Assembly (NCBI RefSeq): GCF_000622405.1
Contig: NZ_JASF01000005.1
Coordinates: 2,604,001-2,668,000 of the forward strand
Source: Sulfitobacter donghicola DSW-25 = KCTC 12864 = JCM 14565
Lineage (GTDB): Bacteria; Pseudomonadota; Alphaproteobacteria; Rhodobacterales; Rhodobacteraceae
Direction of reading: 5' to 3'
DNA length: 64,000 nucleotides
Made by a program: the position numbers and the translations under genes. Shown here piece by piece: positions 19,821 through 20,661 of the stretch. The notes under the pieces are model-generated. The model was not told where the DNA came from. It saw nothing but the letters and a program-made list of their open reading frames with translations, and searched no databases. The first letter of the stretch is position 1; every line of letters begins with the position of its first letter.

Positions 19821-19890
19821 GTCATTCACATAGCTAGGGCGCAGGGAACTTCGTCGGGCGGATTGCCAAAGGCTGCTTCCCAAAAAATAA

Positions 19891-19922
19891 AGCGGTGGCC
19901 ACAGGGAGGTGGGGCCACCGCT
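19891..19922 (-). ncRNA. CCUCCC-loop hairpin, downstream copy 4 with terminator
   Basis: On the minus strand AGCGGUGGCC pairs with GGCCACCGCU (10 bp) around the loop CCACCUCCCUGU. It is followed by UUAUUUUUUG, so it also acts as an intrinsic terminator. It is the last of four such hairpins after the DUF1127 gene, the arrangement known for CcsR1-4 in Rhodobacter sphaeroides. Confidence 0.75.
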
Positions 19923-19930
19923 CTAACAGG

Positions 19931-19964
19931 TGCATCTAGCTGTCTGGGAGGAGAGACAGATGCA
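19931..19964 (-). ncRNA. CUCCUCCC-loop hairpin, downstream copy 3
   Basis: On the minus strand UGCAUC and UGUCU pair with AGACA and GAUGCA, with a four-base bulge on one side. The 8-base loop is CUCCUCCC. The loop sequence is that of the cuckoo RNA family, an anti-Shine-Dalgarno-like motif. Confidence 0.75.
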
Positions 19965-19972
19965 TCTTTTGT

Positions 19973-20014
19973 ACAGCGCGGGGTCATCGGGGAGGCGAGA
20001 CACTGCCGTGCTGT
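19973..20014 (-). ncRNA. CCUCCCC-loop hairpin, downstream copy 2
   Basis: On the minus strand ACAGCACGG (20014-20006) pairs with CCGCGCUGU (19981-19973): nine positions with one mismatch. The loop of about 24 bases contains GCCUCCCC. It is the least regular of the downstream set but keeps the loop motif and spacing. Confidence 0.6.
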
Positions 20015-20021
20015 TTATTCA

Positions 20022-20053
20022 CCCGCGATCAAATGGGAGGATCGGATCGCGGG
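20022..20053 (-). ncRNA. CCUCCC-loop hairpin, downstream copy 1
   Basis: On the minus strand a perfect 9-bp stem CCCGCGAUC/GAUCGCGGG encloses the loop CGAUCCUCCCAUUU. It starts 12 bases after the DUF1127 stop, so it is probably co-transcribed and then processed from that mRNA. Confidence 0.75.
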
Positions 20054-20064
20054 GAATGGCGGTA

Positions 20065-20283
20065 TTACTTAACCATTTCTGCCGCTTCTTTGGACAGGCG
20101 GCGGAAGTCGGCGCGGCAGAGACCAAGGTCTGCCAAGTCACGGGCTGTCATTGTGCACAGCTCGTCGAATGTCTGTTTGTATACTTTGCGCTGACGCATT
20201 TTCAGAGCAATCGTGTCGAAGAATGCTGCGGTGCGGCTAGGCTGCGCGGAAACTGATACGTTGGTGTCTGTGAAGTATGTCAT
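20065..20283 (-). CDS. DUF1127 small protein, CcsR-locus type
   Basis: The 72-residue protein ends with an arginine-rich region and the segment TARDLADLGLCRADFRRLSKEA, the DUF1127 signature. Met at 20283 was chosen because GAGAG precedes it and an upstream start adds no conserved sequence. In Rhodobacter sphaeroides a DUF1127 gene (RSP_6037) is co-transcribed with four sRNAs, CcsR1-4, under stress sigma factors. Here four hairpins with the same type of loop follow the gene. Small DUF1127 proteins are RNA-binding candidates that affect sRNA processing. A 17-base element shared with another promoter region lies 72 bases upstream. Confidence 0.88.
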   Translation of the reverse strand: MTYFTDTNVSVSAQPSRTAAFFDTIALKMRQRKVYKQTFDELCTMTARDLADLGLCRADFRRLSKEAAEMVK

Positions 20284-20354
20284 GTTACTCTCGATCCATC
20301 GGTTGCGTCTTTCTGTGTTCAATACTTAAGGCAGCCAGTTCAGAAAACAATAAC

Positions 20355-20371
20355 CAATGCTGCAATGCGGC
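20355..20371 (-). repeat. Shared upstream element, DUF1127 copy
   Basis: The plus strand reads CAATGCTGCAATGCGGC. The same 17 bases with one change recur at 20645-20661, and 14 of the first 15 bases recur upstream of pyc. All three copies have the same orientation relative to the downstream gene and lie about 45-75 bases from a start codon or likely transcript start. This suggests common control of the three transcripts. Confidence 0.6.
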
Positions 20372-20486
20372 TATGCGTTTTTTGCAAGTGCAGAAAAAAG
20401 TTAGCCCTCTGATTATCAAACGCAAAAGGACATCACATTAACGTGCGTAAATTTCTGAGGCGTGGCCAATGTGAAGACAAAAAAAT

Positions 20487-20518
20487 GGCGACGATATCGG
20501 GAGGATGATATCGCCGCC
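20487..20518 (-). ncRNA. CCUCCC-loop hairpin, upstream copy 3 with terminator
   Basis: On the minus strand GGCGGCGAUAUC pairs with GAUAUCGUCGCC (12 bp, one G-U) around the loop AUCCUCCC. It is followed by AUUUUUUUG. This is both a cuckoo-type hairpin and a strong intrinsic terminator that ends the upstream RNA cluster about 200 bases before the DUF1127 start. Confidence 0.8.
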
Positions 20519-20525
20519 TAAAAAT

Positions 20526-20559
20526 AAGAGGGCCCTCGGGAGGAGGATGAAGGCCTCTT
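20526..20559 (-). ncRNA. CCUCCUCCC-loop hairpin, upstream copy 2
   Basis: On the minus strand AAGAGGCC pairs with GGCCCUCUU (8 bp with one bulged C). The loop contains exactly CCUCCUCCC, the full CcsR/cuckoo motif, at 20546-20538. AUUUUUA follows the stem. Confidence 0.8.
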
Positions 20560-20569
20560 GGATGTTTTA

Positions 20570-20594
20570 GAAAACTATCGGGAGGATTGTTTCC
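20570..20594 (-). ncRNA. CCUCCC-loop hairpin, upstream copy 1
   Basis: On the minus strand GGAAAC pairs with GUUUUC (6 bp with one G-U) around AAUCCUCCCGAUA. It begins about 10 bases after the predicted -10 element, so it would be the first structure on the transcript. Confidence 0.65.
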
Positions 20595-20603
20595 ATGGCT
20601 TAG

Positions 20604-20632
20604 GTATAAAAGTTAATGCTGCGTTAGCACAA
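20604..20632 (-). promoter_or_regulatory. Predicted promoter of the upstream CCUCCC-RNA cluster
   Basis: On the minus strand TTGTGC and TTATAC are separated by exactly 17 bases, a good vegetative-type promoter. It points at the three upstream hairpins. A CtrA-like half-site pair (TTAA, 7 bases, TTAG at 20613-20627) falls in the spacer; that match is weak. Confidence 0.5.
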
Positions 20633-20644
20633 TTAAAAAATGCG

Positions 20645-20661
20645 CAATGCTGCTATGCGGC
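20645..20661 (-). repeat. Shared upstream element, RNA-cluster copy
   Basis: The plus strand reads CAATGCTGCTATGCGGC, 16 of 17 identical to 20355-20371. It lies just upstream of the predicted -35 box of the upstream RNA cluster. The rest of 20662-20787 shows no feature beyond the expected mrp promoter. Confidence 0.6.

Follow-up and report, generated by a model that had tools for sequence, protein, structure and literature searches.

A predicted second RNA unit of the CcsR/cuckoo kind in front of the ccaF1-like gene of Sulfitobacter

Bacterial small RNAs (sRNAs) with anti-Shine-Dalgarno (anti-SD) loops have been described both in the tail of an mRNA and as free-standing transcripts. CcsR1-4 of Rhodobacter sphaeroides arise from the 3' untranslated region (3' UTR) of the DUF1127 gene ccaF1 (RSP_6037) and are matured by RNase E and CcaF1 (PMC8307010, PMC8625941, PMC10253847), from a single precursor driven by RpoHI/HII and processed by RNase E (PMC10253847). 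The same three papers give flhR as a target, describe effects on glutathione and pyruvate dehydrogenase, and report that excess CcaF1 lowers CcsR1-4. NfeR1 (alpha-r14) of Sinorhizobium meliloti is free-standing, carries three hairpins with anti-SD loops and is activated by LsrB (PMC10746234); it silences some transporter mRNAs (PMC7143759). The cuckoo RNA family of Reinkensmeier and Giegerich (2015), as quoted in PMC4504443, comprises RNAs of two to four hairpins whose stems vary while a single loop motif is shared, and its DUF1127-linked loci have been named CIN1 (PMC10253847). Here we describe a locus of the marine bacterium Sulfitobacter donghicola DSW-25 that combines the CcsR and NfeR1 layouts, since a ccaF1-like DUF1127 gene has motif hairpins on both sides. 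It lies in a stretch of 64,000 nucleotides (contig NZ_JASF01000005.1, positions 2,604,001 to 2,668,000), hereafter the window, to which coordinates refer. On comparative sequence evidence, the hairpins in front of the gene are a real, conserved second RNA unit of the CcsR/cuckoo kind, NfeR1-like by anatomy, whose position is confined to Sulfitobacter among the loci searched.

By direct reading and folding, seven minus-strand hairpins flank the gene, three upstream (20594-20487) and four downstream (20057-19888), and CCUCCC, or the CUCCC part of it, lies in the loops of all seven. The features of the locus are as follows, R1 and R2 being two models introduced below.

20644..20658, minus strand: LsrB/VtlR-type box GCATAGCAGCATTGC of the upstream unit (exact GCATRGCNGCATTGC site; conservation)
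20603..20632, minus strand: putative core promoter of the upstream unit, TTGTGC-N3-GCAGCA, with its -35 (20632-20627) and a possible -10, TATACC (20608-20603)
20570..20594, minus strand: H1, upstream hairpin with loop CUCCC and a weak stem (folding)
20526..20559, minus strand: H2, upstream hairpin with loop AUCCUCCUCCC (folding; covariation; R1, which was trained on H2, and R2, which was not)
20478..20518, minus strand: H3, upstream hairpin (stem-loop 20518-20487) with loop AUCCUCCC and a T-run, an intrinsic terminator (folding; terminator scan)
20362..20376, minus strand: LsrB/VtlR-type box GCATAGCCGCATTGC of the ccaF1-like gene (exact pattern match)
20065..20283, minus strand: ccaF1-like DUF1127 gene, 72 amino acids (PF06568 at 33.6 bits, cut-off 23.3, E 3.2e-8; translation)
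20017..20057, minus strand: D1, downstream hairpin (folding)
19973..20014, minus strand: D2, downstream hairpin (folding)
19928..19967, minus strand: D3, downstream hairpin with a loop containing CUCCUCCC (folding)
19879..19925, minus strand: D4, downstream hairpin (19925-19888) with a T-rich tail (folding; tail noted by eye), probably the end of the ccaF1 transcript

A preliminary description of the window had reported seven CCUCCC-type hairpins in this arrangement, one of them with the exact CCUCCUCCC motif, around a DUF1127 gene, and all of this is borne out. The PF06568 match confirms the gene, and the exact motif is found in H2 alone of the window's hairpins. Both sets of hairpins fold far better than chance would allow: the upstream unit beats 200 of 200 dinucleotide shuffles (z -5.75), as does the downstream unit (z -7.88). 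The motif is equally concentrated. There are 24 CCTCCC/CTCCTCC sites on the two strands of the 64 kb, nine of them within a 741-nt single-strand stretch of the locus for which the rest of the window predicts 0.087. H1 is the weakest hairpin, at -5.7 kcal/mol alone and -2.7 kcal/mol with CCUCC kept wholly unpaired. The terminator scan finds an intrinsic terminator that closes the upstream unit and makes no call at the D4 tail.

Conservation within the genus was assessed in the best 30 DUF1127 loci, each from a different genome among the 36 searched in the genus, S. donghicola included. At least two upstream and at least one downstream motif hairpins are present in 28 of the 30. The number of upstream motif hairpins in these 28 loci is two in 16, three in seven (the subgroup of the window) and four in five; the first hairpin is predicted to be a motif-less leader in 21 loci, and the CUCCC-loop H1 stands in its place in the other seven. 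An alignment of 26 of the 28 upstream units (A3; L027 and L029 were left out) contains 20 base pairs, of which 11 show changes on both sides. Its cells are paired in 96.3% of cases against 86.0% in shuffles, and its covariation score of 0.418, against 0.221 in shuffles, is reached by none of 500 of them, while slid versions of the structure attain at most 0.129. One of five measures, the number of further pair types, was not significant (59 of 500 shuffles). In the H2 stem eight of nine pairs have changed on both sides; in H3, 99.3% of cells are paired, three of 11 pairs have changed on both sides and five are invariant. The CCUCCUCCC loop nonamer, by contrast with these stems, is present in H2 of all 26 sequences and in H3 of 22. 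A fixed loop on free stems is the pattern of a selected RNA. It is therefore very improbable that the hairpins are mere terminators or decaying repeats with no regulatory role, even though H3 and D4 do look like terminators: the H2 and H3 loops are nearly fixed while their stems covary, and 28 of the 30 loci retain the unit, each of these 28 with its promoter-like region.

Comparisons beyond the genus used 80 named loci, the top 80 among 477 relatives confirmed for a single DUF1127 profile and thus a biased, Ruegeria-rich sample that does not include R. sphaeroides. Seventeen are of Sulfitobacter type (14 labelled Sulfitobacter and three Roseobacter sp. metagenome-assembled genomes of like architecture) and the remaining 63 belong to other genera of Rhodobacteraceae. 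A plain hairpin scan finds upstream motif hairpins in all 17 Sulfitobacter-type loci. Model R1, built from A3 and so including the window's unit and some strains also among these 17, was applied to the window and to all 80 named loci. Upstream of ccaF1 it gives a match of 87.5-108.5 bits in every one of the 17 Sulfitobacter-type loci and none in the 63 others, some of which have a short upstream stretch (420 nt in L086). Downstream of ccaF1 it matches in 62 of these 63, at best with 73.7 bits; the exception, L151, is a contig that stops shortly after the gene. In a further 25 DUF1127 loci of the family, obtained through the Rfam CcsR1 family (RF02791) in addition to the 80, every R1 match is again downstream, including that in the locus closest to Rfam CcsR1 (L162, 106 bits), so that R1 finds nothing upstream in any of the 63 and 25 loci. 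Two kinds of candidate for an upstream unit elsewhere were set aside: single upstream CCTCC hairpins in other genera were not counted, R1 being empty upstream there, and a hairpin pair upstream in L092 (Pseudoruegeria) is GC-rich and on inspection probably coding.

Because the training of R1 is biased towards the upstream unit, a second model, R2, was built without any Sulfitobacter sequence. It draws on the first module of the downstream array in 27 of the 63 other-genus loci and has only 10 base pairs, all in the second hairpin. In all 18 Sulfitobacter-type sources, the window included, R2 scores the upstream unit above the local downstream array. The respective values for the window are 37.1 and 24.2 bits, and in L107 R2 gives no downstream match at E 0.01. 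By these scores it is the upstream unit, rather than the downstream array, that is nearer to the CcsR modules of other genera. Among the loci searched, the upstream unit is genus-specific in position but not in kind.

This bears on whether the unit might instead be an alpha-r14/NfeR1-like sRNA gene of other origin, inserted beside ccaF1. The best single Rfam family for the upstream unit is indeed ar14 (RF02344), at 51.0 bits (E 3.3e-8) over the full model, 1-123, against 28.6 bits (E 9.1e-5) for CcsR1. Also in favour, free-standing units exist elsewhere in the family: three (L169, L178 and L179) of five RF02791 loci with no DUF1127 gene in their roughly 3 kb have the composite promoter described below directly in front, and two do not, so units of like kind stand free in other genera too. 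Yet ar14 also matches ccaF1-linked modules, with up to 68.2 bits (L086), and its score therefore has no discriminating power. Among the loci searched with R1, which leave out the free-standing units, the best matches outside Sulfitobacter are ccaF1-linked downstream modules. R2, in turn, derives from ccaF1-linked modules alone and prefers the upstream unit to its downstream neighbour without exception. We regard insertion of a foreign gene as unlikely, and derivation from the ccaF1 array as the most likely origin.

Formal family membership is less clear-cut. The preliminary description had proposed a covariance search of the locus, and the ar14 and CcsR1 models do match the upstream unit, though below their gathering scores of 58.8 and 65.3; matches to the downstream unit are weak (ar14 27.8 bits, CcsR1 16.9 bits). 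At gathering scores Rfam finds only a tRNA in the whole window. Across 196 genomes of the order, RF02791 matches weakly in 180, five of them over the cut-off. A class-wide ar14 search matched in nine of 190 genomes and in none over the cut-off; it was too insensitive, so no rhizobial alpha-r14 was brought in and the comparison with that family is with the Rfam model rather than with the rhizobial sequences themselves. The assignment of the locus, with its DUF1127 gene, to a CcsR/cuckoo type holds broadly. As in the cuckoo family, defined here after a citing paper, there are two to four adjacent hairpins with variable stems and a shared anti-SD loop motif.

The equation of the four downstream hairpins with CcsR1-4 does not survive. 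Each CcsR consists of two stem-loops, the Rfam CcsR1 model spans 83 nt with a pair of hairpins, and the arrays of other genera are paired, with a hairpin spacing that alternates between about 42 and about 63 nt; four downstream hairpins therefore amount to about two CcsR units. Nor is the locus unusually large, as had been supposed from its seven hairpins. Downstream hairpins in the 63 other-genus loci number from none (L151, where the contig ends) to 16, most often six or eight, and Sulfitobacter-type downstream arrays mostly have four (12 of 17). The arrays of L132, L143 and L155 are very long and regular, with 16, 12 and 11 hairpins, and in L132 and L143 several R1 matches spaced 113 and 119 nt apart have identical scores, suggesting that two-hairpin modules were amplified in tandem not long ago. 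In two other genera, cobalamin riboswitches lie shortly 3' of the ccaF1 array (L086:1511-1706 and L115:3674-3862, both minus strand).

Set beside RSP_6037-CcsR1-4, the locus shares a DUF1127 gene with CCUCC-type hairpin loops 3' of it, the two-hairpin modules, and R1/R2 homology to ccaF1-linked arrays. It differs in its separate front module, with a promoter-like region and terminator, and in a diverged downstream array. CcsR RNAs lie 3' of a DUF1127 gene, a position that the downstream unit occupies and the upstream unit, with its own terminator, does not. Of the adjacent hairpins with CCUCCUCCC loops that mark a CcsR, both units have the hairpins, and the exact nonamer stands in H2 alone in the window but also in H3 in most of the same-genus sequences. 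Set beside alpha-r14/NfeR1, the upstream unit shares the set of three anti-SD-loop hairpins, an RNA expected to stand free and to measure about 120 nt, and an LsrB-type box ahead of the putative core promoter. It differs from that family in its Rfam score, in having the full CCUCCUCCC in one of its three loops, where alpha-r14 is defined by three, and in adjoining a DUF1127 gene. The titles and abstracts listed in literature searches contain no account of the upstream unit or of an LsrB/VtlR box at ccaF1, although an earlier description in the original CcsR, CcaF1, alpha-r14 and above all cuckoo papers is possible.

The promoter-like region provides the other main line of evidence. Of the 80 named loci, 66 have a match of at least 12/15 to the Brucella VtlR site, as given in PMC12595884 and compared on the opposite strand, no more than 230 nt from ccaF1, against two of 1600 mononucleotide shuffles and none of 80 for the reversed motif. 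At the same threshold all 28 upstream-unit promoters have the box, as do 55 of the 63 ccaF1 promoters from other genera, but within the genus only 18 of 28 ccaF1 promoters. A second element, TTGTGCANNNGCAGCA (at least 12/13), occurs in 28 of 28, 55 of 63 and 10 of 28, respectively; in all 28 upstream-unit promoters it starts 27-28 nt after the start of the box and scores 12-13 of 13. These counts for TTGTGC-N3-GCAGCA describe rather than test, because the element was chosen by eye from the same promoters, as was the -10 TATACC. The way box and element divide, frequent at the upstream unit and in other genera and rarer at ccaF1 of the same genus, gives the upstream unit the ancestral-looking promoter. 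The proposal of a second RNA unit with its own promoter and terminator is thus upheld as to the terminator and the conserved promoter-like region, while a generic sigma-70 scan reports no promoter at the locus and the promoter is deduced from conservation.

With a terminator in front of it, the gene is improbable as the target of a cis-acting leader or attenuator formed by the upstream hairpins. Such a role would suit hairpins on the strand of the gene and some 200-310 nt before it, and an attenuated DUF1127 gene of S. meliloti is described in a 2025 paper (PMC12218461). Here, however, the terminator is strong, a second box-type promoter region lies between unit and gene, and both the loop motif and the covarying stems are of the sort seen in trans-acting families. 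That the upstream module has an apparent promoter and terminator of its own suggests that the RNA could be produced without the protein, and the protein without the RNA.

The exact box GCATRGCNGCATTGC occurs three times in the genome of S. donghicola: at both promoters of the locus and once before pdhA. With one mismatch there are nine sites against four for the reversed pattern, and only exact matches were therefore used. The exact box is found in 36 of 40 genus genomes and the reversed control in one. The pdhA copy (L039:1501-1515; C5:133923-133937 of the genome) lies about 116 nt before the gene and scores 14/15 against the VtlR site, and relative G001 has a 15/15 match to that site at equal distance. 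As a conserved member of the regulon pdhA was rejected, since the box is present in only two of 22 same-genus pdhA loci and the other 20 score at most 11/15. The H1 and H3 loops have 10-nt complementarity to the pdhA ribosome-binding site (TCGGGAGGAT), which is kept in three of these 22 loci and for that reason is a lead only; TCGGGAGGAT before TG has five genome sites, one being the locus itself. Box and complementarity together make a pdhA link suggestive in this genome, and across the genus it is not conserved. Further exact copies of the box (GCATGGCSGCATTGC) in four same-genus loci with no DUF1127 or pdhA match (L064, L067, L073 and L081) may be coding chance or further targets.

A candidate regulator is encoded in the genome. 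A LysR protein of 301 residues (L219:5283-6188, minus strand) matches PDB chain 9hh1_A, Agrobacterium tumefaciens LsrB (PMC11975290), with 242.7 bits, the next chain reaching 98.7, and 49 of 63 residues of the DNA-binding region are identical to those of A. tumefaciens LsrB. By sequence it is a close relative of LsrB/VtlR, and a single homologue (E 1e-50 or better) is present in each of 61 genomes of the order examined, S. donghicola included. The 2025 paper PMC11975290, whose sampling included R. sphaeroides, calls LsrB unique to Rhizobiales; PMC7486931 states that VtlR/LsrB is present in many Alphaproteobacteria. The neighbours of the LysR gene, named by eye, resemble purL and an indolepyruvate ferredoxin oxidoreductase.

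Our preferred explanation, which we consider probable, is that a CcsR-type module was copied or moved in the Sulfitobacter lineage to a free-standing, LsrB/VtlR-controlled position and so became the upstream unit, which would work in the manner of rhizobial alpha-r14/NfeR1. We infer its transcription, LsrB binding, its anti-SD targeting and the direction of relocation as follows. A module of the ccaF1 transcript's 3' portion, accompanied by a ccaF1 promoter of ancestral type, would have been copied or relocated to a place ahead of the gene. There a promoter activated by an LsrB/VtlR-type LysR protein would drive a free-standing transcript of about 120 nt, ending at the unit's own intrinsic terminator. 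This RNA would act in trans, its anti-SD loops pairing with ribosome-binding sites of GGAGG type, so that metabolic mRNAs would be translated less under stress. Behind the unit, the ccaF1-like gene would retain a promoter of its own and a diverged tail of four hairpins, processed into CcsR-like RNAs. Part of the RNA pool would thereby become independent of ccaF1 transcription, of RNase E and of CcaF1-assisted maturation.

Several observations weigh against this explanation. The upstream unit is missing from two of the 30 same-genus loci, L033 and L037, each on a short contig, and a third locus, L032, has a single strong downstream hairpin. Both ar14 and CcsR1 score below gathering at the locus, and a weak RF02791 match also turns up in one of 14 control genomes (Thermus composti). 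The choice of the core element by eye and the empty sigma-70 scan count here as well, and R2, with so few base pairs, weighs mainly sequence. As to the regulator, the LysR gene is not beside trxB, unlike in Rhizobiales, and the redox cysteines C144 and C273 named in PMC11975290 correspond to V and A, taking chain numbering as protein numbering. With neither the trxB neighbour nor the two conserved cysteines, the protein would not be simply equivalent to LsrB.

The locus is flanked by genes for a UvrD-type helicase and an Mrp-type ATPase. Both lie in the 2.5-kb flanks of 13 of the 17 Sulfitobacter-type named loci, and Mrp alone in the other four. In the other genera, where some contigs end early, 19 of 63 loci have both neighbours, 38 one of the two and six neither.

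A wider reading, which we put forward tentatively and at somewhat less than even odds as a whole, would join these results. One LsrB/VtlR-type regulator and its composite promoter would control a whole superfamily of anti-SD hairpin RNAs with their DUF1127 partner, comprising CcsR in Rhodobacterales and NfeR1/alpha-r14 in Rhizobiales. The Sulfitobacter locus would be a snapshot of a 3'-UTR-derived sRNA escaping from its host mRNA with the promoter and leaving the gene a weakened one. In one sublineage, finally, the motif-less leader hairpin would have become a third targeting loop.

If our explanation is true, the family Rhodobacteraceae holds one module in both forms beside the same protein gene, a natural experiment on sRNAs cut from mRNA tails as compared with those that have genes of their own. 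The box common to 66 of 80 named ccaF1-type promoters would link the CcsR/CcaF1 system, RpoH-driven as described in Rhodobacter, to the LsrB/VtlR sRNA circuits of Rhizobiales. The explanation would also place a close relative of LsrB/VtlR in Rhodobacterales, against the restriction to Rhizobiales claimed in PMC11975290.

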